Notes under the pieces: generated by a model
What the model was told of the DNA's origin: nothing
What the model saw: only the letters and a program-made list of their open reading frames with translations
The model's database searches: none
Made by a program: the position numbers and the translations under genes
Assembly (NCBI GenBank): GCA_009917695.1
Contig: JAACJG010000002.1
Span: forward strand, 434,001 to 498,000
Length of the DNA stretch: 64,000 nucleotides
Reading direction: 5' to 3'
Source: Candidatus Rifleibacterium amylolyticum
GTDB lineage: Bacteria > Muiribacteriota > Ozemobacteria > Ozemobacterales > Ozemobacteraceae
Part shown: in pieces, positions 52,095 through 64,000 of the stretch
Numbering within the stretch: position 1 is the stretch's first letter
Layout: every line of letters starts with the position of its first letter

Positions 52095-52376
52095 ACCATA
52101 CCCGGCGCGAGCAGCAATTCAAGGTCAAAAACAACCCTCTTTCAGCTGACTACAGGAATGCAATCCATTTGAGACTGAATACTTGACGATATTGTGTAAA
52201 AAAAACCGTAACCAAACAGCAGATTTTCAGGTAAAATAGGTCATCCTGTTTCTAAGCCATTAAACCAGATAAAGATTGTCGATCTGCCTGAAGATAGCGG
52301 ATGACTACAATGTAATGCCACAGCAACACGATAACAGGAGTGCGATTTCAGAGTTTTTCAGGTGAAAGGCGCAGAG
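52095..52376. other. Divergent intergenic region ahead of the lipid cluster
   Basis: The 337-bp gap between divergent genes holds the ABC-F promoter on the left. The rest should contain the promoter of the UbiA cluster, but I can only find weak candidates: TTGACG at 52183 without a fitting -10, and TAAAAT at 52232 without a -35. No ORF, hairpin or repeat of note was seen. Confidence 0.4.
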
Positions 52377-53372
52377 ATGAGCATGGCTGAAATAAAAAAG
52401 TTTGTAGTTGCCTACGTCAAGACGATGAGACCCTATTATTCGTTCATTACCGGCATCGCCGGCTGGATCGGCGTCTCGTTTTACCTATGGCTCAAAGAAG
52501 TCAGATATGCGACCCCGATCACTAACGATGATTACCTGCGCGGCGTTGTCGTATTGATCATTCTTTTCTCGAGCTGGGGCGTCAACCAGATTTTCAATGA
52601 CTGGCTGGGACTGCCTGAAGACCGTGTCAACGCGCCGAACCGCCCGATGGTCAGCGGCGAGCTCAACGTCAAATGGGCGCTGACGACCTCTTTCACCCTC
52701 ATGGGCATAGCCGCTATCGTTTCTTATTTTCTCAACCCCTGGTCGCTGATTCCTCTGTTTGCCGGGTTTCTGCTCAACTTCGTCTACAACTACAGCAAAG
52801 CCTGGGGGATCTGGGCCAACGTCGTCTTTGGCCTGATGATCTCGACCTGCACGGTTTACGGCTTTCTTGCCATCGGCCCGATTCTTAACGAACCTTTCTT
52901 CACCACCAACCGCTATTCAACCATTCTGCTGGTTGCCTACATGAACGGCCTGATGACCTATTTCACCTATTTCAAAGATTATGAAGGCGACAAGGCCGCC
53001 GGCAAAAACACCTTCATCGTCAGGCATGGCGTCGAGAGAGCTAAAATGCTTGGTATATTCGGCTCATTCATGCCAACTATTCTTTTCTTCGCTCTCAGAT
53101 ATATGAATTATTTTCCGTTTGCCATCACTGAACACTTCGTCTACTGCGGGGTCATGACCATTTTTTTGCAGCTCTGGACAGCGATTCGTTTTTACCGCAA
53201 CCCGGTCGGGCCACGCGCCTACTTCTCGAACGCCACCAACTTCAGGGCATGCGCCTGCGGCCAGGTCACCATGATCGCGATATTCAACGGCACGCTGGCA
53301 CTCTACCTCTACAGCGCAACCTATGTGTTCATCGGCTTTTTGTTCGGACTGCACGACGACGATAAATCCTGA
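52377..53372 (+). CDS. UbiA-family prenyltransferase
   Basis: An integral membrane enzyme of about nine helices that moves a prenyl group to an acceptor. The first Asp-rich motif reads NDWLGLPEDRVNAPNRP (residues 74-90) and the second YFKDYEGDKAAGKNT; both are the family's diphosphate/Mg2+ sites. The acceptor is unknown. Start: I prefer the ATG at 52377 with AAAGG upstream; the GTG at 52362 is possible. The next gene starts 17 bases on. Confidence 0.85.
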   Translation: MSMAEIKKFVVAYVKTMRPYYSFITGIAGWIGVSFYLWLKEVRYATPITNDDYLRGVVVLIILFSSWGVNQIFNDWLGLPEDRVNAPNRPMVSGELNVKWALTTSFTLMGIAAIVSYFLNPWSLIPLFAGFLLNFVYNYSKAWGIWANVVFGLMISTCTVYGFLAIGPILNEPFFTTNRYSTILLVAYMNGLMTYFTYFKDYEGDKAAGKNTFIVRHGVERAKMLGIFGSFMPTILFFALRYMNYFPFAITEHFVYCGVMTIFLQLWTAIRFYRNPVGPRAYFSNATNFRACACGQVTMIAIFNGTLALYLYSATYVFIGFLFGLHDDDKS

Positions 53373-53389: not shown

Positions 53390-54577
53390 GTGTTTACACC
53401 GCTCAAACTCAGACGCACAACTCTGCCCAACCGTATCGTCAGAGCAGCAACCTTTGAAAATATGGCTGATGCCGAAGGCATACCAACGGCAAAATTCGCT
53501 GAACTTTATAAAAAGCTGGCAGATGGCGGTGCGAGGTGCATTATCACAGGTTTTAACCATACCTCACGCGAAGGCCGAGCCATGCAACCGTTTCAGGCCG
53601 GCATCGACGACAGCCGCAAAATAGCAGGCTGGAAGCAGGTGATCGATAATGTCAAGTCAGCCCAGTCTGAGACGCAACTGTTCATGCAGATTTCGCATAC
53701 CGGTCGCCAGACGCTGCAGCGTGTTACCCGCATGCCGGTTAAAGGTGCCGGCCCGGTCAAATGCACCTATTTCAGACAGCCGGTTAAGCCTCTGACTACA
53801 GATGAAGTCAAAGAAAAAGTCGATGAATACATCAGAGCTGCCATAAACGCTGAAGAAGCCGGCATCGACGGCATACAGATTCATTGCGCCCATGGTTATC
53901 TGATTCACCAGTTCATGTCTCCCTTTACCAACAATCGCGAGGACGAGTATGGTGACGACCGCCTGCTTTTTCTCAAGCAGGTGGTCAACGGAGTAAAGTC
54001 GGCAGTCAAATTACCGGTTTTCTTGAAGATCAGCGCTGCCGATGACCGCCAGCGCGGGCTGAACCTGCCGCTGGTCATTTCATACTGGCCGGATATCGAT
54101 CGTCTCGAAGTTGATGCCATTGAAATCAGCTACGGCATGATGGAAGTCGCCTTCAATATCATTCGCGGAGAACATCCGCTCGACCCGGTTCTTAAACACA
54201 ACTGCCTGTTCAACCGTTATCATCCGGCACTGCGCTGGCTGTTCAAACACTTTATCTATCACTGGTACAAACGCAGTTTTATCGATTACTGCGATCTTTA
54301 CAACCTCGAAAACGCTGCAAAAATCAAGGCAATATCGAAAACCCCAATTCTGGTTACCGGCGGTATCCGCAAAAAGAGCCAGATCGATTACATCATCAAC
54401 CAGCGCGGCATTGACGGCGTGACTCTGAGCCGGCCGTTCGTCTGTGAACCCGACTTTGTCAACCGCCTGGCCACAGGCAGCGGAGAAGTAGTATCAGGCT
54501 GCACCAGCTGCAACCTCTGCACTGTAATGTGCGACAGCAGGCAACCTCTACGCTGTTACCGGGGGCCGGCCAGATGA
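53390..54577 (+). CDS. Old Yellow Enzyme-type NADH:flavin oxidoreductase with Cys cluster
   Basis: A FMN-dependent TIM barrel (about 1-340) that typically reduces C=C bonds next to a carbonyl. It has the family's IHCAHGYLIHQFMSP and RPFVCEPDF signatures. A C-terminal segment (CTSCNLCTVMC, then a further Cys) resembles the [4Fe-4S] site of 2,4-dienoyl-CoA reductase, but the second flavin/NAD domain of that enzyme is absent. It starts with GTG at 53390 and overlaps the exporter gene by 4 bases. It may serve as ene-reductase for the cluster's acyl chain. Confidence 0.85.
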   Translation: MFTPLKLRRTTLPNRIVRAATFENMADAEGIPTAKFAELYKKLADGGARCIITGFNHTSREGRAMQPFQAGIDDSRKIAGWKQVIDNVKSAQSETQLFMQISHTGRQTLQRVTRMPVKGAGPVKCTYFRQPVKPLTTDEVKEKVDEYIRAAINAEEAGIDGIQIHCAHGYLIHQFMSPFTNNREDEYGDDRLLFLKQVVNGVKSAVKLPVFLKISAADDRQRGLNLPLVISYWPDIDRLEVDAIEISYGMMEVAFNIIRGEHPLDPVLKHNCLFNRYHPALRWLFKHFIYHWYKRSFIDYCDLYNLENAAKIKAISKTPILVTGGIRKKSQIDYIINQRGIDGVTLSRPFVCEPDFVNRLATGSGEVVSGCTSCNLCTVMCDSRQPLRCYRGPAR

Positions 54578-56868
54578 AAAAAGCGATCAGCGTGCTTGCT
54601 CACCTTCTGGTCAAATGGGCAAAATACGCGTTCGCGCCTTTCATGTTACTTCTGCTTCTGTCATTTCTGCTGTTAGGCCCGCAGATGTGGCCAATACAGA
54701 TCAACAACACCCTCGACACCTTGCTTGAGCAGGGCACCGAGCAGGCTGCCATCGACAAAAGCATTCAGCAAACCTTCGGCCTGCTCGACGAGATAATAAT
54801 TCTGGCTTATCATGATCCAGATCTGTTCAGCGTTTCCGGACTAAATCTGATCAAGCAGCTGACAGAACAAATCGAAGAAGTCGAAGGCGTTAAAAACTGC
54901 TTCTCGCTCGCCAATACGCCATTTTTTCGCAACTACGAGCGCGATGGCGAATCGATCGTTGAATCAGCCCCTCTGCTCGACACTATACCGACAGACGCTG
55001 CCGGACTGGCGCGTCTCAAGCAGGAAGCCACAGACAACAAGCTGTTTCGCAACAACATCATTTCACCCGATGGCAATACAGCGGCATTCAACATAATTCT
55101 GCGCGCCGGCCTCGATCCGTTTGCCAAAGAAGCCATCGTCAGGCAGATCCGCGCCGACTACACTGCAATGGCGCAATCACATAAAGGCCGCTTCTATTTT
55201 ACCGGCATGCACGTGTTCATGGAAACCACCGGCGTTCAGATGCAACGCGATGTCATGCAGTTTTCGGTGGTTTCGATAATTTTATTATTCATTGGACTGT
55301 ATGTGATCTTCCGTTCGGTGCCGATGGCGTTGATCGGCATAACCACTGCCGGAATCGCCAACTGGCTTCTGTTCGTTACGCTTCACCTCATGGGCAAAAC
55401 CCTGTCGATCTCAACAACTCCGGTGCCCGCCATTACCGTTGGCCTGTCGATTGCTTACGTTCTCCACCTGATTGTGGCACGCAAAGAGGGAATCATCGAA
55501 GACGCTCACGAAACTGAGCAGATCTTCATCGGCAATCTACTTTCGGCACTGACCACGATGATTGGCTTTCTGTCGCTGTGTTTGAACCCGATTCCGACTC
55601 TGCAGGATTTCGGCCTCTATGCTGGCCTGGGCACTTTTTATGCGACCATCGCCGGCGTCTTTTTCGGGTTTCCACTGCTGCAGAAACTGAAAGCACCGCC
55701 GAATCACGATTTTGGCGAAGGGGTCAAGGCAGTTGTCGAAACGGTCTTTTATCGGCATCGCCGACTGGTTATAGGAGTATCAGTCATTATTTTCTGCAGC
55801 GGCATATTCTTGCTGCGCATGGAAGTCGAAACCGATTATTACCAGTATTACCTTCGCTCAGCGCCAATGGTACAGTCGGTAGATTTCGTCAACCGCAACA
55901 TTGGCGGCCAGTATCCGATAGTAATCGAGTTTACAACGCCTGGAGTAGACCAGGTTTACGAAGGCAACATGCTGGGTTGGCTCGAAAAGCTGTCAGAGCA
56001 TGCCATGACTTATAAAGGTGTCGACAAGGTAATAACTTACCTCGACCTTCTCAACGACGGGCATCGCGCCTTTGCCGATCGGCCCGAACCCGGCTGGTTC
56101 AACAACCGTGCCATGGTGGGCCAGGTCGCCATGATGGTCAATGACGCCGGGCCAGAGCTCAGCTCATATTACGTCGATTCCGCCGCACAGAAAACCCAGG
56201 TATTCATTCGCACCAGCCATATCAACTCAGCTTCTTTTCTGGCCATAGACGAGGGAATCAGAAAGTTTCTTGCAGAGAACACACCAGATGGAATCAGCTA
56301 CAAAGTCGGTGGAACATATCTGCGCTGCGTGCAGTCGGCGAATCGCATGGCGCTCTCACAGCTTTACGGAACTTTTGTCGCGTTCTGCGTGCTGTTTTTT
56401 GTGGCATTCATAGCTATTCCGAAGGTCAAACTGATTCTGATGGCTTTCGTTGTGAATCTGCTGCCGATATTCGGCGTTTACGGCCTGCTCGGAATACTTG
56501 GCGAGACCCTGAACATGGGAACGACAACCATCGCGGCGATTGCCATCGGCATCGGCATGGACGATACCATGCATTTTCTCACCCGCTTTACTACATATTA
56601 TGAAGAAACCGGCAACCCGCACGAAAGTGCCAAACATGTGATTCACTCATCGGGAGTCTCGATGATACTTACTTCGAGCATGATCGCCCTGTCGTTTCTG
56701 TCGTTGTCACTGAGCATAATCAAGCCGATCTATCAGCTCGGAATATTCACCAGTGTAACCATGGCGTTGTGCCTGCTGGCCGATCTGTTTCTCATGCCGG
56801 TGCTGGTGAACTGGCAAACCCCGAACCCTGACCAGGCTGTCGAAAAACCGGCTTTGCCGAACAATTGA
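54574..56868 (+). CDS. MMPL/RND-type lipid exporter
   Basis: A 764-residue membrane protein with the MMPL/HpnN plan: one N-terminal helix, a periplasmic loop, five helices, then a second such unit. MMPL members carry lipids and hydrophobic molecules across the envelope, so this is the likely exporter of the cluster product. The helix IAIGIGMDDTMHF carries the conserved Asp pair of the proton relay. The ATG at 54574 overlaps the previous stop (ATGA). Confidence 0.9.
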   Translation: MKKAISVLAHLLVKWAKYAFAPFMLLLLLSFLLLGPQMWPIQINNTLDTLLEQGTEQAAIDKSIQQTFGLLDEIIILAYHDPDLFSVSGLNLIKQLTEQIEEVEGVKNCFSLANTPFFRNYERDGESIVESAPLLDTIPTDAAGLARLKQEATDNKLFRNNIISPDGNTAAFNIILRAGLDPFAKEAIVRQIRADYTAMAQSHKGRFYFTGMHVFMETTGVQMQRDVMQFSVVSIILLFIGLYVIFRSVPMALIGITTAGIANWLLFVTLHLMGKTLSISTTPVPAITVGLSIAYVLHLIVARKEGIIEDAHETEQIFIGNLLSALTTMIGFLSLCLNPIPTLQDFGLYAGLGTFYATIAGVFFGFPLLQKLKAPPNHDFGEGVKAVVETVFYRHRRLVIGVSVIIFCSGIFLLRMEVETDYYQYYLRSAPMVQSVDFVNRNIGGQYPIVIEFTTPGVDQVYEGNMLGWLEKLSEHAMTYKGVDKVITYLDLLNDGHRAFADRPEPGWFNNRAMVGQVAMMVNDAGPELSSYYVDSAAQKTQVFIRTSHINSASFLAIDEGIRKFLAENTPDGISYKVGGTYLRCVQSANRMALSQLYGTFVAFCVLFFVAFIAIPKVKLILMAFVVNLLPIFGVYGLLGILGETLNMGTTTIAAIAIGIGMDDTMHFLTRFTTYYEETGNPHESAKHVIHSSGVSMILTSSMIALSFLSLSLSIIKPIYQLGIFTSVTMALCLLADLFLMPVLVNWQTPNPDQAVEKPALPNN

Positions 56869-56881
56869 GGAGTATCAGCGC

Positions 56882-58126
56882 ATGCAACCCAACCAGATTA
56901 CCGGAATTGGCCTGATTACAGCTGCCGGCGTCGGCTGCGCCGAAAATTACCGCAACTTTACCGCCCGCAATCCTGGAATCTGCACGGTAACCAGATTTGA
57001 GCTGCCTACTGCCAAGGTAAAAACCAATTTTGCCGGCCTGATCAAGAATTTGTCCAATGAGTCTCTTCCGACAGAACTCCTGCCAATGCTGAATGAAGAT
57101 GATCTGGCACAGGACTACGTCAAAGCCGCAGTCTATGTGACCGCCGAAGCGATAAAAGATGCCGGACTAGCAGACAGAGAGGTTTCTGATCCGCGCCGAA
57201 CCGGTCTGATAGTCGCCAGCAGCCTCGGAAATTTTCTCAACGTTTCCGAACTGGTTAAAGATTATTTTATGAAAGAGCTCTACAAGATCACCTCGCTGAT
57301 TCACGGCATGAACAGCTACCTGCCCTCGCGCCTTGGCAGCATGTTCGGCGTTGCCGGCCCCTGCTACTTCGTAAGTTCTTCATGCACCAGCGCTCTCAAT
57401 GCCATACTGCAGGCCGACACCCTTATAAAAAGTGGTGTCGTCGATCGCATGCTCGTCTGTGCCGTCGATGTCTGCCTCGAAACCGGAACCTACCACCTAT
57501 GGAACAAGATCCGGGTGCTTTCACACCGCAATGACAGCCCGCAGACCGCCTGTCGGCCCTACTGCAAGACCCGCGATGGCATTGTGGTATCAGAGGCTGC
57601 CGGTTGCTTTGTCATCGAACGAGCCGAGCCAGCAACTCGTAGCCATGCCACTATCAAAGGCATAGGCATGGCCAACGGTGCCAGTGATTTTCTCAAGCCA
57701 TCGCCAGAACTGCTTGAAGCTGCCATTCGCGAGGCGCTCGCAACAGCGCAGACCCCTTCCGACGAAATCGACTTCATCGCCGGCTCAGCCTCGGGCTCGC
57801 CGCACTGCGACCATTTTGAATCTGAGGCGGTATGCCGCGTTTTCGGCGAACGGGCGAAAAAAATACCGGTATTTCCATACAAAAGCTTTCTCGGATCAAC
57901 CTTCGGAACCCAGGCGATCAGTGAAGGAGCCCTGGCGATCAGATCGATGAACGGAAACCTGGTGCCCGAACCCTTTAATATTTTTGAGCCAGACGAGCGT
58001 GTCAAGGCCAATGTTTATTATAATGCCTCTGATTATGCCGGGTATGAGATCAATAAAATACTCTTTATCAATTACGGTTTTGCCGGCAACCACATGGCGA
58101 TGGTGTTGGGGAAATGTGACAGTTAA
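56882..58126 (+). CDS. Beta-ketoacyl synthase homologue lacking catalytic histidines
   Basis: A 414-residue thiolase-fold protein of FabF/KS length. The nucleophile Cys168 in SSSCTSALNA is present. The two histidines needed for decarboxylation are replaced: HGT/HAT is Ser302 (GSASGSP), and the GH of KSxxGH is Gly338-Ser339 (KSFLGST). Lys334 remains. It therefore probably cannot do normal decarboxylating condensation; it may be a chain-length-factor-like partner, an acyl transferase or a primed thioester handler. GAGGAG precedes the ATG. Confidence 0.9.
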   Translation: MQPNQITGIGLITAAGVGCAENYRNFTARNPGICTVTRFELPTAKVKTNFAGLIKNLSNESLPTELLPMLNEDDLAQDYVKAAVYVTAEAIKDAGLADREVSDPRRTGLIVASSLGNFLNVSELVKDYFMKELYKITSLIHGMNSYLPSRLGSMFGVAGPCYFVSSSCTSALNAILQADTLIKSGVVDRMLVCAVDVCLETGTYHLWNKIRVLSHRNDSPQTACRPYCKTRDGIVVSEAAGCFVIERAEPATRSHATIKGIGMANGASDFLKPSPELLEAAIREALATAQTPSDEIDFIAGSASGSPHCDHFESEAVCRVFGERAKKIPVFPYKSFLGSTFGTQAISEGALAIRSMNGNLVPEPFNIFEPDERVKANVYYNASDYAGYEINKILFINYGFAGNHMAMVLGKCDS

Positions 58127-58196: not shown

Positions 58197-58448
58197 ATGA
58201 GCAAACCTGAAATTACGCGTGAAGCGCTGATAGAAAAAATTGTGGCGGCGATTAAAAAGGTGTCGGGCATCAGCATTGCGCCAGAAAAATACGGCGACAA
58301 CCTGTTTGCGCTTGGCCTCGACAGCATCAAGGCAATACAGGTCGTCAACATGCTCGAAGACGAACTCGACCTGATGATTGACGATGCCCATCTGCCAAAA
58401 TTCACCTCAATCGATGCCATTGCCGCCCATTTTGATAAAATTCGGTAG
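58197..58448 (+). CDS. Acyl carrier protein
   Basis: An 83-residue carrier domain with the phosphopantetheine site GLDSIK (Ser43). The LGLDSI form is closer to polyketide-type than to fatty-acid-type carriers (usually GADSL). It would hold the acyl chain for the ketosynthase-like, dehydratase and oxoamine synthase proteins. Its ribosome binding site GGGGGAGAG is strong. No phosphopantetheinyl transferase is in the window. Confidence 0.92.
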   Translation: MSKPEITREALIEKIVAAIKKVSGISIAPEKYGDNLFALGLDSIKAIQVVNMLEDELDLMIDDAHLPKFTSIDAIAAHFDKIR

Positions 58449-58505: not shown

Positions 58506-59069
58506 ATGAGTTTTAATAGATTTCTGACTATTTCAGTTGTGTTGTCGTTGTTTGTTGTTGGCTTTGCTGAAGCGAGTTTTGCGCAAACCACAGAAGATCT
58601 GTGCAAACAGGTCAAGCAGATAATGCATTGTCTTAAAAACAACCAGATTCCTATGGCCAAAGCGCATATTGCAAGATTTTATCCGCCAGAATACCGGGAG
58701 TATCTAAAAGAAACCTTTGGTGATGAGCTTGGTTCAGCCTACGCACGCGATTTTCAGGAACAGGTATCTTCTCTTGCAGATTTCGTAGAGCTAATGACAA
58801 AAAGATTTCAGATGGAAGTTGATGCTGACTTTGGGGATATCAGATGTTTCAAAATCGATCAGCCATCAGATATTCCAACCTGGGTCTGGCAAAAGAAGCA
58901 GACTTTTCTTCTGCAGAACATGAAAAAACCGGTCTCGCTTTATGAAATAATGTTTTACGTTTCCAGGGATCGCGAGACATTCAGGCCAATTGCAAACTTT
59001 GTTATCATCAACGGTTCATTCAAGCTGATCGGGCAACCCGAAAAGGCAGCCAGCGCTCTGATGAACTGA
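58506..59069 (+). CDS. Secreted hypothetical protein within the lipid cluster
   Basis: A 187-residue protein with a signal peptide ending near ASFAQ. The mature part is helical with a few strands at the end (FRPIANFVIINGSFKLIG). I recognise no family. AAGGAG precedes the ATG. Its place between the ACP and dehydratase genes suggests a periplasmic role in lipid transfer, but that is inference. Confidence 0.75.
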   Translation: MSFNRFLTISVVLSLFVVGFAEASFAQTTEDLCKQVKQIMHCLKNNQIPMAKAHIARFYPPEYREYLKETFGDELGSAYARDFQEQVSSLADFVELMTKRFQMEVDADFGDIRCFKIDQPSDIPTWVWQKKQTFLLQNMKKPVSLYEIMFYVSRDRETFRPIANFVIINGSFKLIGQPEKAASALMN

Positions 59070-59123: not shown

Positions 59124-59906
59124 ATGAAAGCTGACTGCACCTTTTCGCTGGAAGAATTGCCGTGTCTGGCCGATCATCAGCTGGATGGCACGCCGTTCGT
59201 GCCGATGGCGATGCTCGTCGATGAACTCGCGCGCAGATTCAGCCGAGACTGCTGCAGCTTTGCCGGCATCGAAGTAAAGACGCCGGTGATGCTGCGCAGA
59301 AGACTGGCTAAAACACTGGTTTGCACCTGCGACGAACAAACCTCCAGCCTGCAGGATGAGAATGGTAATCTGCATGCGATTCTTACCAAAGGCGCCAACA
59401 TATTTGCAGACGGCGGTTTTGAGCTGGCAGCACCCCGGGATGCAATTCCCTCAGCCTTGTTGAAACAGCAGCTTTACCCGGCGCTGCTGTTCCACGGTCC
59501 GACTTTTCAGGCTGATTTCGTGTTTTACGAATTCAACCGCCAGACGGTTGTGGTCGAACTCTCTGATTTTGCCCACGAAAACCCGTCTCTGGGTGGATAT
59601 GCTCACGACCAGCGTGTTCCCATAGTTCTTTTCGATCTGCTGTTACAGGCCGCCGGACTGCACCTCATGGCCTTTTCTGATACTTATGGGCTGCCGACGG
59701 CATGCGCAAGCCTGTCGATATTCAATCGCCGGCCGGTCGGCAATGTTCTGGTAAGAGTCACCTGTCATGAGAGTGATCTCTACAGCATAATTGCCGGCGA
59801 TACGACCGGGAAATCGGTAATGACCTGTTCAGGAATACGTTTTGCCAGATCCGTCCGTAAGATAGAAGCCGAAAAAAAAGATATTTTGAAGGAACTTACC
59901 AGATGA
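59124..59906 (+). CDS. Stand-alone PKS-type dehydratase (double hot-dog)
   Basis: A 260-residue protein that resembles the dehydratase domain of type I polyketide synthases: LADHQLDGTPFVPMAM (catalytic His18 with the following hydrophobic segment), FHGPTFQ (123-129, cf. YGPxFQ), and Asp171 in the LFDLLLQAAG helix. This gives the His/Asp pair expected for removing water from a 3-hydroxyacyl-ACP. No other PKS domain is attached. It overlaps the next gene by ATGA. Confidence 0.78.
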   Translation: MKADCTFSLEELPCLADHQLDGTPFVPMAMLVDELARRFSRDCCSFAGIEVKTPVMLRRRLAKTLVCTCDEQTSSLQDENGNLHAILTKGANIFADGGFELAAPRDAIPSALLKQQLYPALLFHGPTFQADFVFYEFNRQTVVVELSDFAHENPSLGGYAHDQRVPIVLFDLLLQAAGLHLMAFSDTYGLPTACASLSIFNRRPVGNVLVRVTCHESDLYSIIAGDTTGKSVMTCSGIRFARSVRKIEAEKKDILKELTR

Positions 59907-61162
59907 ACGATAACGAAGCAACCACCGAGTCCCTGTATGAGCCGCCGCCCGAGAGCAACGACATAACCGAAAAGACCCGTTTCTTTTATCCAAAACTGCT
60001 CGACATTCAGCAAAAAGGCCATTACACCTACCGCCGCACTCTGGCTTCGCCTAGCCAGCACCGGGTAACCACAGTCGACCCGGCGACTGGAGAAAAGCGT
60101 GAAATGCTGATGTTCGCTTCGAACAACTACCTCGGCCTGTCTACTCACCCTCGTGTGATCGAAGCGGCAAAAAAGGCAGTCGTCGACTATGGCTACGGAA
60201 CCGGCTCAGTTGCGCTGCTGAGCGGCACATCAGAAGTGCATCGCCGGCTCGAACAGAAAATCGCCGAGTTTTACCGCTGCGAGAGTGCTGTGGTGTTTCC
60301 GACTGGCTATCAGGCCAATGTCGGCACCATTCAGGCGATGGTCGGTGCCGGCGATGTCGTTATTTCAGACATGTACGCGCACGCATCGCTGATCGATGGC
60401 GTCAAGCTCAGCGAAGGCTCGCTCAAGTATTTTCAGCACAATGACATGGCACATCTCGAGCAGATGCTGATCCGTGCCAGTCGTTTTTTCAAGGGCAAGC
60501 TGATTGTCGTAGATGGCGTGTTCAGCATGGATGGAGACATCGCACCCCTTGATGAGATTCAGAAACTGGCAAAAGCTTATGGCGCCGCAGTTCTGGTAGA
60601 TGAAGCGCATGCTGTCGGCATGATCGGAGCGACCGGGCGCGGCAGCGCCGAGCACTTCGGGCTCGACGGTCAGATCGACCTGACTATCGGCACATTGTCG
60701 AAAGCGCCGTCGGGAATCGGCGGTTACCTGGCCGGCAAAGCCGAAATCGTCGAATATGTCAGACACTTTGCGCGTTCTTATATCTTTTCGACCAGTATTC
60801 CGGTGCCGGTGGCAGCAGGATTGATCGAGGTGTTCGACATTATCGAGCACGATGCCGAACTGCGCAACCAGCTGCGCAGCAACGTCGATTACCTGCTTGC
60901 CGGCTTTCACCGCCTCGGTTTTCACACCTTCGGCTCGTCTACTGCGATTATTCCGGTGTTGATCGCCGACGACATCAAGCTGCGCAAAGTCTGCAAGGCA
61001 CTGCATGAGCGTGGAATATTCGCGACACCGGTGACCTTTCCGGCGGTGGCCAAAGGGCGTTCGCGCATCAGATTCTCGGTAATGGCAACACATACCCGCG
61101 AAGAACTCGACACCCTGCTCACTGCCATGTCCGAACTGAAACAGACCTTCGACCTCTCATGA
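59903..61162 (+). CDS. Alpha-oxoamine synthase (SPT/BioF/Kbl family)
   Basis: A PLP enzyme joining an acyl thioester to an amino acid with loss of CO2 to give a 2-amino-3-ketone; family members include serine palmitoyltransferase (sphingolipids), BioF and Kbl. The 419 residues show PLP sites H160 (YAHASLIDG), D233/H236 (VDEAHAVG) and the Schiff-base Lys267 (GTLSKA). Nearby ACP, reductase and lipid kinase favour an SPT-like lipid role over BioF or Kbl. Whether the substrate is serine cannot be told. Confidence 0.9.
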   Translation: MNDNEATTESLYEPPPESNDITEKTRFFYPKLLDIQQKGHYTYRRTLASPSQHRVTTVDPATGEKREMLMFASNNYLGLSTHPRVIEAAKKAVVDYGYGTGSVALLSGTSEVHRRLEQKIAEFYRCESAVVFPTGYQANVGTIQAMVGAGDVVISDMYAHASLIDGVKLSEGSLKYFQHNDMAHLEQMLIRASRFFKGKLIVVDGVFSMDGDIAPLDEIQKLAKAYGAAVLVDEAHAVGMIGATGRGSAEHFGLDGQIDLTIGTLSKAPSGIGGYLAGKAEIVEYVRHFARSYIFSTSIPVPVAAGLIEVFDIIEHDAELRNQLRSNVDYLLAGFHRLGFHTFGSSTAIIPVLIADDIKLRKVCKALHERGIFATPVTFPAVAKGRSRIRFSVMATHTREELDTLLTAMSELKQTFDLS

Positions 61163-61358: not shown

Positions 61359-62405
61359 GTGAATTCAACAAAGCTAAGAAATAACATACTGATAACTGGT
61401 GCAAACGGATTTATTGGAAGCCATATCGTCAGGGCTTTCTGCAAACCACGGCACGCCAAGGTTACGGCGTTGGTGCGGCCGAGTTCCGATCTGCGCTTCA
61501 TCAGGTGTTACCCGATCGAAATGATGCATGGTGACCTGGCCAGCGGCAGCTTTGACCCGGCGCAGATGCAAAATTTCGACACAATAGTGCATGCCGGTGG
61601 CAAGGTTGGCGACTGGGGTGACTATCAGGACTTCTACCGCACCAACGTGCTCGGCAGTCTGGCGCTGTTCAACGCAACCCGACATGACAGTGGTTTTGTC
61701 TATATCAGTTCAAATGCCGTGCTTGGCGAAGAAGACGAGGCCCAGGCGAAAGCCGAAAATGCCGAACGCCGGCCGGTATTGGAGTATGCTTTTGAGAATC
61801 TGCTGCCTTCGGCAATGAACCATTACCGTTTGAGCAAAGCAGTCTCAGAGATGCTTTTAATTGCGCGCGCAAAACAGACCGGACGGCGGTTGACCGTAAT
61901 CAGACCGGTCTGGGTTTTCGGGCCGCGCGAGTTCAATGCCGGACCTTATGAATACTGCAAAACGGTTAAAGGTGGCATGCCGCTGATGCCAGGTTGCGAC
62001 AGCAACCGTTTTCATACAATCTATGCCGGCGATCTTGCGAAAATAGTTGTCAAAGTCAGCAACAACATCAAACCAGACATAAATATCTACAATGTTGGCA
62101 ATCCTCAGGTAGAGCTGATGACTGACTACTGGTCAGCATTCTGTGCAGCAATGGGCGTAAAAGTTCCGCGGCATATTCCAAAATGGCTGCTCTATCCGCC
62201 GGCAATGATGATGGAAGCAGCCTGCAGCCTGGCAGGAGCTACCGAACCGCCGCTGTTTACACGCGCAAGAGTCTATATGTTCTATGCCAGTAATGTGTAT
62301 AATGTCAGCAAGGTTATTGATGATTACGGCATCGATAAGTTCACTTCTCTCGAAAAAGCAACACGAGTCACTGTCCGCTGGTGGCGGATGAATGGCTATC
62401 TATGA
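61359..62405 (+). CDS. NAD-dependent epimerase/reductase-type SDR (CerR-like)
   Basis: An extended short-chain dehydrogenase: GANGFIGSH (residues 14-22) is the NAD(P) site, and Y156/K160 in YRLSK is the active pair. The 348 residues and the C-terminal half fit the 3-beta-hydroxysteroid dehydrogenase/HpnA/CerR subgroup. In Caulobacter, CerR reduces the ketone of the SPT product, which is a good model for this gene beside an oxoamine synthase. The start is GTG at 61359 with a weak ribosome binding site. Confidence 0.85.
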   Translation: MNSTKLRNNILITGANGFIGSHIVRAFCKPRHAKVTALVRPSSDLRFIRCYPIEMMHGDLASGSFDPAQMQNFDTIVHAGGKVGDWGDYQDFYRTNVLGSLALFNATRHDSGFVYISSNAVLGEEDEAQAKAENAERRPVLEYAFENLLPSAMNHYRLSKAVSEMLLIARAKQTGRRLTVIRPVWVFGPREFNAGPYEYCKTVKGGMPLMPGCDSNRFHTIYAGDLAKIVVKVSNNIKPDINIYNVGNPQVELMTDYWSAFCAAMGVKVPRHIPKWLLYPPAMMMEAACSLAGATEPPLFTRARVYMFYASNVYNVSKVIDDYGIDKFTSLEKATRVTVRWWRMNGYL

Positions 62406-62421
62406 CTTCAGGAGGCACGCA

Positions 62422-63717
62422 ATGAGCAGACCGCGATTTCTGATCGGCCCGGCAAAACTGCTGTTTTATACCCGCATGGTGATTCATGTTTTTCTGCATT
62501 ATCTACTGCGCCTGCTCAAGTGCGAACTCGGGCCGACAGGCTTCGTACTGTTGCTGAAACGGCTTATACTTTTTCTCAACGCGGTTCGACACAACAAGGT
62601 CGTCGAGGTCGATGGCAAATACAAGTTTCAGCTCTACATGCCAGCCTACCCAACCCCTGCTTTCTGGGAATCAATCGAAAAATTCATCAGACCCGACCCG
62701 GGCCCACTGACCGTGGTATTTTCGATGACCAAAGCCTGTGGCTACAAGTGCCCACATTGTTATCAGCGCAACGATACCGGTGCTGATCTCGATATCGAAC
62801 TGCTCAAAAAGACGGCCCGCCAGATGCAGGAAGTTGGTGTAACCATGTTCGACATCGAAGGCGGCGAACCGCTGCTGATGTTCGACCGGCTGATCGAACT
62901 GCTTAAAGCGTTTGATAACAAACGCGAGCTATGGGTTAACACTACCGGCCATACTCTAACACCCGAAAAAGTGCAGAAACTCAAAGAAGCCGGGCTTTTC
63001 GGCGTCATGATTTCGCTGCACTCGATCGACGAGAAGGAATACGACAAGTTCACCGGCTTTCCCGGCTCTTTTGGTATAGCCCGTGATGCCGTCAGACAGT
63101 TTGTCGATGCAGGTATCGTCGTCGCGATAAACTGCTGTCCGTCAGCCGAAATGGTGGCCGATGGCACGGTCGAGCGAGTATTCGAACTGACAAAACAATG
63201 GAACTGCTCATATATTCAGGTCATTCACGGCAAGTCAGCTGGCGCCTGGCTCGGCAAAGACGACGAAATGATCAAGGCCGATGCCTCGATACGCAAACTC
63301 AACCAGATTCATCTCGATTACAACCTGCTGTCGCGCTATCGCGATCATCCTGCGCCGGCAGTGCAGGTTTTCGAGGAAAACGAGCAACATTTTGGCTGCA
63401 CTTCGGGTGGCATAGACCGTTTCTACATCGGTGCCAATGGCGATGTTCAACCCTGCGAGTTTTTGAACGTCTCGTTCGGCAATGTTAACGAAGAAGACTT
63501 TCTGACCATTTTCAGGCGGATGCGCGAGTATTTCAAAGAACCGGGCTGTCGCTGGCTGTGTTCGCGTGAAGCGCACACAATCTACGAGACAATGCAGGAA
63601 AACAAGCTGACCGCTACCCCGCTGCCCTGGAAATACACGAAAGATCTGCTGAAAAAGTGGGATTACGGCCGCAAGACGCCGTTATACAGAAAAATGGGAA
63701 TCTATAAAAACCAGTAG
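62422..63717 (+). CDS. Radical SAM enzyme with SPASM-like C-terminus
   Basis: The cluster motif CxxxCxxC (Cys106, 110, 113) binds the [4Fe-4S] that cleaves SAM. GGEP follows in the barrel. A ~90-residue N-terminal extension with hydrophobic helices may hold it at the membrane, and a C-terminal Cys-containing part (CTSGG, QPCEF, CRWLCSREA) resembles SPASM auxiliary-cluster regions. I cannot name the substrate. The ATG at 62422 has AGGAGG upstream; an ATG at 62392 overlaps the previous gene. Confidence 0.88.
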   Translation: MSRPRFLIGPAKLLFYTRMVIHVFLHYLLRLLKCELGPTGFVLLLKRLILFLNAVRHNKVVEVDGKYKFQLYMPAYPTPAFWESIEKFIRPDPGPLTVVFSMTKACGYKCPHCYQRNDTGADLDIELLKKTARQMQEVGVTMFDIEGGEPLLMFDRLIELLKAFDNKRELWVNTTGHTLTPEKVQKLKEAGLFGVMISLHSIDEKEYDKFTGFPGSFGIARDAVRQFVDAGIVVAINCCPSAEMVADGTVERVFELTKQWNCSYIQVIHGKSAGAWLGKDDEMIKADASIRKLNQIHLDYNLLSRYRDHPAPAVQVFEENEQHFGCTSGGIDRFYIGANGDVQPCEFLNVSFGNVNEEDFLTIFRRMREYFKEPGCRWLCSREAHTIYETMQENKLTATPLPWKYTKDLLKKWDYGRKTPLYRKMGIYKNQ

Positions 63718-63770: not shown

Positions 63771-64000
63771 ATGGATGTTTTGGATCGACAAAAACAGGCA
63801 GATCGACCGGTAGAATCTCTGTTTCTGGTGCTGAACCCTTCTTCGCGGTCGTTTAGCGGGCAGAAGAAGTGGCCGCGGATTTTTGAACTGCTCGAACGCT
63901 CGGGTGTTTGCTACGAGCAGGCGCTTACCAGCCAGAGCGGCGACGGCACCCGCCTCGCCTTCGAAGCAGCAAAGCGCGGCTTCAATGCAATAATCGCGGT
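63771..64000 (+). CDS. Diacylglycerol/sphingosine-kinase family protein (5' part)
   Basis: The first 76 codons of a gene that continues beyond the window. LFLVLNPSSRSFSGQKKW is the nucleotide-binding start of the DAGK/LCB5 family, followed by the expected helix and GFNAIIAV just before where GGDGT should come. Such enzymes phosphorylate diacylglycerol, sphingoid bases or ceramide. This supports a lipid product for the cluster. Confidence 0.85.
   Translation, partial: MDVLDRQKQADRPVESLFLVLNPSSRSFSGQKKWPRIFELLERSGVCYEQALTSQSGDGTRLAFEAAKRGFNAIIA

Follow-up and report, generated by a model that had tools for sequence, protein, structure and literature searches.

The window analyzed here, i.e., a stretch of 64,000 nucleotides from a Candidatus Rifleibacterium amylolyticum contig, encodes a FabF-like protein, hereafter KS*, in which the active-site cysteine and lysine of ketosynthases are kept and both catalytic histidines are replaced by serine. 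From its sequence and by analogy with known systems, it can be proposed with moderate confidence that KS* is a non-elongating ketosynthase, namely an acyl-ACP to ACP transacylase that would load the dedicated acyl carrier protein (ACP) encoded beside it, in a conserved operon whose products are probably sphingolipid-like molecules. Non-elongating ketosynthases (KS0) are themselves already known; what appears to be new, judging from these comparisons, is the KS0 logic in a separate protein inside a sphingolipid-like operon. The features discussed below are collected in Table 1.

Table 1. Genes and codons of the KS* operon in the window, and location of the alternative front end (codon equivalences refer to E. 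coli FabF).
Feature	Position	Strand	Remarks
UbiA-family prenyltransferase	52362..53372	+	co-occurs with the core
OYE-family flavoprotein, possible enoyl reductase	53390..54577	+	usually adjacent
MMPL/RND lipid transporter	54529..56868	+	usually adjacent
KS*, FabF-like protein, Cys-Ser-Lys-Ser active site, 414 aa	56882..58126	+	open ORF
Cys168 codon TGC	57383..57385	+	FabF Cys163
Gly266 codon	57677..57679	+	FabF Asp265, loop 2 gate; Gly in 7/7 KS*
Ser302 codon TCA	57785..57787	+	FabF His303; Ser in 7/7 KS*
Lys334 codon AAA	57881..57883	+	FabF Lys335
Ser339 codon TCA	57896..57898	+	FabF His340; Ser/Thr in 7/7 KS*
His404 codon	58091..58093	+	FabF Asn404, loop 1 gate; His in 6/6 KS* reaching the position
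Dedicated ACP, motif GLDSIKAIQ	58197..58448	+	related to E. coli AcpR
DH, double-hotdog dehydratase-like, HxxxGTPFVP and DxxxQ	59124..59906	+	Pfam PKS_DH_N and PS-DH just below cut-offs
AONS, alpha-oxoamine synthase, serine-palmitoyltransferase/KBL-like	59903..61162	+	
Extended SDR, candidate 3-keto reductase, epi-like	61359..62405	+	
Radical SAM/SPASM protein (rSAM)	62392..63717	+	constant core
YegS-type lipid kinase, start (DAGK_cat)	63771..64000	+	continues beyond the window, L014:772-1740
Alternative front end (ACP2, AONS2, intact KS2) beside SDR, rSAM, UbiA, OYE and MMPL	L094:7521-10243; L096:2693-5700		

Both the N and the C domain of the Pfam ketoacyl-synt family are matched by KS*, and its score lies below the curated FabF cut-off (204.1 bits against 493.75). 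Residue equivalences were taken from an alignment with E. coli FabF (1b3n, 6okg), which bears out what a sequence-only reading of this DNA had stated, i.e., that Cys168 and Lys334 are intact and that Ser302 and Ser339 take the places of the two histidines. One orthologous copy (G001) is cut by the end of its contig, leaving seven sequences, including that of the window, for the comparison of key residues. Cys168 is kept in all seven. Regarding the serine pair, relatives share it in part: Ser302 is invariant, while position 339 is Ser in three and Thr in four, and is thus a Ser/Thr position rather than half of a strict Ser pair. The histidine which the same reading had numbered 309 and considered as possibly functional elsewhere in the pocket is actually residue 308; as it varies among orthologues (His, Tyr, Val, and Ala in three, two, one, and one of the seven), it is ruled out as a substitute base. 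His311 is present in six of the seven. Sequencing error is excluded because the same pattern is found in independent MAGs, and a decaying gene is ruled out by orthologue conservation and by purifying selection, dN/dS being 0.058-0.079 in three close pairs whose dS of 1.2-1.7 is near saturation.

KS* occurs in 8 of the 39 genomes of the phylum, the window's own included, and in 8 of the 381 genomes of a wider set (E<=1e-55), all of them from the family of the window; no relative beyond the phylum was found among these 381 genomes at that threshold. The KS* genomes known by title are metagenome assemblies. A contig scan by two peptide patterns only returned seven KS* loci, all from Candidatus Riflebacteria, and identity to KS* does not exceed 30.4% among the 15 listed of 918 matches in plasmid records. 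For comparison within the phylum, 69 ketosynthase-like proteins longer than 330 aa were reduced, by removal of near-duplicates, to a panel of 54, seven of which are KS*. The Cys-His-Lys-His set is found in 44 of the other 47, most of which are FabF orthologues and therefore not independent; the three exceptions are two proteins without Cys that resemble chain-length factors (CLFs) and one poorly aligned row. The FabF of the window's own genome is intact. In a tree of 51 ketosynthases, KS* is set off by a fully supported, very long branch and, as far as these sequences go, the loss of the histidines is a trait of the clade, not an error. The contrast drawn earlier with CLFs, which usually lose the Cys, agrees with the panel, where both CLF-like proteins lack this residue that KS* always has. 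These two CLF-like genes (L081:656-2005 on the + strand and the second ketosynthase-like frame of L097 on the - strand) come from other families of the phylum and stand beside intact ketosynthases, possibly in type II PKS clusters.

An AlphaFold model of KS* built from 51 sequences reaches a pLDDT of 90.8, an earlier model built on 7 sequences (pLDDT 59.5) having been set aside. Its best match is 4jpf (Z 55.8, rmsd 1.9, 402 residues aligned), so that the structural comparison with FabF advised by the sequence-only reading yields a FabF-like, thiolase-type KASII fold. Fold, Cys, Lys, and Phe400 are shared with FabF (KASII); in contrast, both catalytic His are lost, the gate residues Asn404 and Asp265 are altered, and the basic residues docking AcpP are missing. 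The positions of FabF Thr305 and Thr307, which we take to be pantetheine-binding, are Ser in all seven KS*, a conservative change by which both hydroxyls stay. In loop 1, the GFGGTN type is turned into GFAGNH or GFAGTH, its last position being Asn in 42 of the 44 aligned panel proteins against His in KS*, and in the acyl pocket FabF Phe202 is replaced by Trp (7/7). FabF Arg68 and Lys69 correspond to Asp and Leu in 7/7 KS*, in a gapped region where the alignment is unsure; this suggests that AcpP may not be the donor and counts against the housekeeping AcpP in its usual pose. From these residues, the active site of KS* is rebuilt, not merely broken. In FabF, Asn404 and Asp265 are described as members of a gate network, for which an exclusion of beta-hydroxyacyl-ACP has been proposed (PMC7138838).

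The order KS*-ACP-DH-AONS-SDR-rSAM-kinase is found in all five loci spanning it (L015, L016, L018, L019, and L020) and in the window continued into L014, while in a sixth genome (L120) the run is seen from ACP to kinase, the contig starting downstream of the KS* gene. ACP and DH are present in the window and at six further loci, and a dedicated ACP lies near the AONS in 7/7. This ACP carries DS(I/L)KAIQ in 7/7, to be compared with ESIK in E. coli AcpR and DSLD in the AcpP of the same genome, and is 33% identical to E. coli AcpR over 58 columns (E 4e-8). In the DH, the motifs HxxxGTPFVP, HGPxxQAD, and DLxxQ are invariant in 7/7 and the rest is very diverged. With E. coli serine palmitoyltransferase (SPT), the AONS has 35% of its residues in common; it has SPT (3a2b) and KBL as PDB neighbors, and lies below every curated NCBIfam cut-off for SPT (best 376.6 against 640 bits); the SDR shares 24% identity with the E. 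coli epi protein (E 4e-10). UbiA, OYE, and MMPL genes are usual neighbors of this run, and UbiA was found in 10 of the 13 genomes searched, i.e., in every KS* genome and in both genomes having the alternative front end described below. None of the genes of the operon was recognized as an acyl-ACP synthetase (ligase). Searched with the E. coli BL21 synthetase at E<=1e-20, 8 of 11 genomes gave no match, five of the eight KS* genomes among them; the remaining three have matches of 27-31% on other contigs. A 187-aa ORF between the ACP and DH genes (58506-59069, + strand), with no Pfam match and, by eye, an apparent N-terminal signal peptide, has no counterpart seen at the same place in five other loci. 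In conservation, the radical SAM/SPASM protein ranks with the best of the core (60-63% identical beyond the genus), and it scores far under the NCBIfam cut-offs listed.

Considering that KS* lacks both His, keeps the Cys, and belongs to a conserved lipid operon, carrier-to-carrier acyl transfer is probable. Residues, conservation, fold, operon, and co-occurrence are read from sequence, and we infer from them the catalytic steps as well as the donor, the chain, and the amino acid. Cys168 would accept the acyl chain, perhaps a 3-hydroxyacyl, from a donor thioester, probably an acyl-ACP of fatty-acid synthase, and KS* would hand it on to the AcpR-like ACP encoded beside it; the His pair would have been lost because KS* never decarboxylates malonyl-ACP. 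If 3-hydroxyacyl, the ACP-bound chain would be a substrate for the DH. The AONS would then join the chain to an amino acid, giving a 2-amino-3-oxo lipid whose ketone would be reduced by the SDR, and the kinase, radical-SAM, UbiA, and MMPL proteins would complete and export the lipid. Of the two activities suggested by the sequence-only reading in place of elongation, acyl transfer is hence the one favored by the retained Cys and Lys, the lost His pair, the Thr-to-Ser changes, and the ACP-DH-AONS operon; the altered gate residues are also counted for it. Weighing against the whole scheme are the diverged DH, the 24% identity of the SDR, and the AONS scores under the SPT cut-offs, and the ACP might be loaded instead by an acyl-ACP synthetase more distant than those searched for.

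Several known systems offer partial parallels. In the dehydrating bimodules of trans-AT PKSs, a KS0 with a Cys-Asn-His set is described as passing the chain to an ACP for dehydration, and mutation of its Cys as abolishing the product (PMC8456789). Such a KS0, e.g., KS3 of HtmA1, resembles KS* in that the Cys is kept and the HGTGT His is lost; it acts as a transacylase alongside an ACP and a DH (PMC8456789), as KS* would. However, KS0 is a domain of a large multimodular PKS whereas KS* is a free-standing FabF-like protein with ACP and DH encoded by separate genes, and the reported example retains the second His while KS* lacks both. As separate proteins, KS*, ACP, and DH nevertheless parallel a KS0-DH-ACP module. 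An algal KS0 with a His-to-Ser change in HGTGT is likewise expected to be non-elongating (PMC4661987). Regarding the SPT side, in the AcpR-SPT operons of Rhodobacteria an acyl-ACP synthetase is reported to load AcpR, which feeds SPT (PMC9386255), and the operon of E. coli BL21 has the order fatty acyl-AMP ligase, epimerase, ACP, SPT. The aasR-epi-acpR-spt operon (Caulobacter, E. coli BL21) has in common with the KS* operon that a dedicated ACP, an SPT-type AONS, and an epi-like SDR are neighbors, but its loader is a fatty acyl-AMP ligase/acyl-ACP synthetase whereas KS* and DH stand first here, with rSAM, kinase, and UbiA genes in addition. Taken together, the lack of a recognized synthetase gene in the operon, the KS0-DH-ACP precedent, and the place of KS* at the head of the operon lead to the transacylation reading. 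AmcF, a ketosynthase of cispentacin formation, is also KS-like, of type II, and has a dedicated ACP as its partner, but it elongates, as a heterodimer with AmcG according to its description (PMC10698177), unlike KS* under transacylation. Membership of KS* in the AmcF family was rejected, its score being 100.7 against a cut-off of 325.

Transacylation by KS* could be carried one step further, although we regard this extension as doubtful: KS*, ACP, and DH may form a free-standing dehydrating module leading from a 3-hydroxyacyl chain through 2-enoyl-ACP to a 3-keto-4-ene sphingoid base independently of oxygen. KS* would shift an (R)-3-hydroxyacyl chain from fatty acid synthesis to the ACP, its gate having been reset to accept beta-hydroxyacyl chains; the DH would yield 2-enoyl-ACP, and condensation of this with serine, or with an amino acid like it, by the AONS would give the 3-keto-4-ene base, whose 4,5 double bond is of the sphingosine type. 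CqsA was dropped as a precedent for an AONS taking 2-enoyl thioesters, since its substrates are described as decanoyl- and octanoyl-CoA (PMC3376566). A sphingoid kinase of P. gingivalis is reported to phosphorylate dihydrosphingosine and not sphingosine (PMC9045371), so that a 4-ene substrate becomes slightly less likely for such a kinase.

The SDR and radical-SAM core is present in 10 of the 39 phylum genomes, and the SDR in 10 of the 381 genomes of the wider set. KS* and the KS*-type AONS are found in seven of the ten core genomes. In two others (G020 and G008), the ACP and the AONS adjoining the same core are of another kind (33-35% identity for the AONS), as is the ketosynthase, whose Cys-His-Lys-His is intact; a profile search of these stretches, with one out-of-frame row among its seven, gave no DH. 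The contig of the tenth (G007) begins inside the MMPL gene and showed no front end. As a KS* genome (G015) shares its genus with G020 and G008, the front end seems, from these sequences, to have been exchanged between relatives. KS* chemistry is not required by the core, given the two genomes in which an intact ketosynthase, with no DH found, stands beside it. Among these few genomes, a missing His pair coincides with presence of a DH. The swap of an intact ketosynthase without DH for a His-less one with DH, on the same core, would be a natural test of the purpose of the His pair.

Other activities of KS* have to be weighed. KS* might move the acyl group from Cys168 to a small-molecule N or O acceptor, e.g., N-acylate the long-chain base in replacement of the usual N-acyltransferase. 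None of the genes from KS* to the kinase was recognized as an N-acyltransferase, and acyltransferases of ketosynthase fold acting outside elongation are described, e.g., ChlB3, which loads an ACP; however, an N-acyltransferase could be encoded outside the operon, the hydroxyls on the pantetheine side are retained through the Thr-to-Ser changes, and the KS* gene comes directly before ACP and DH, not among the late genes, so that we hold this activity to be unlikely. It is slightly less likely still that KS* is an elongating enzyme in which the function of the His pair has passed to Ser302, to Ser/Thr339, or to the conserved His404. The consistent His at a position that is nearly always Asn in the panel and the intact ketosynthase of the alternative front end speak for elongation, but FabF Asn404 is placed in the gate network with Asp265, outside the Cys-His-His site (PMC7138838).

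A role as non-catalytic, CLF-like partner of an intact ketosynthase encoded elsewhere is improbable: although CLF-like pseudo-ketosynthases do occur in the phylum (L081, L097), these lack the Cys that KS* has kept throughout and adjoin an intact ketosynthase, as a CLF gene adjoins an intact KS-alpha, whereas no second ketosynthase was recognized in the KS* operon. Formation of a carbon-carbon bond without decarboxylation, the other option of the sequence-only reading, is given the lowest probability. Retention of Cys and Lys with loss of the His pair would be compatible with such a reaction, and the SDR is weakly similar to OleD-type reductases, whose pathway starts with a head-to-head condensation; against this, it has found no positive support in sequence, and the AONS of the operon would already give the C-C bond-forming step needed for the SDR product.

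If the transacylase reading is true, the SPT-type ACP would have another loading route, the KS0 principle would extend beyond giant PKSs to a small separate protein, sphingosine-like unsaturation would be obtainable without oxygen, and a lipid class would have to be sought in a phylum known here from metagenome assemblies only. Among the literature matches listed, with most subscription journals uncovered, there is no free-standing KS0-like transacylase of FabF type. Within the same coverage, which makes for weak evidence of absence, no literature linking Riflebacteria with sphingolipids was found; that on Riflebacteria and polyketides comprises only unrelated work by title or abstract, and a word search of PMC11334938 gives no mention of Riflebacteria. 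With regard to ketosynthases serving sphingoid base formation elsewhere, SgaAB from Pseudomonas fluorescens is reported as a ketosynthase-containing PKS that feeds an SPT-like AONS and makes sphinganines (PMC12134224), but it is a single type I PKS whereas the KS* system consists of separate proteins. Further alpha-oxoamine synthases are found in G037, G010, and G020 on contigs bearing large ketosynthase frames of PKS size, an arrangement that recalls PKS-fed sphinganine clusters.
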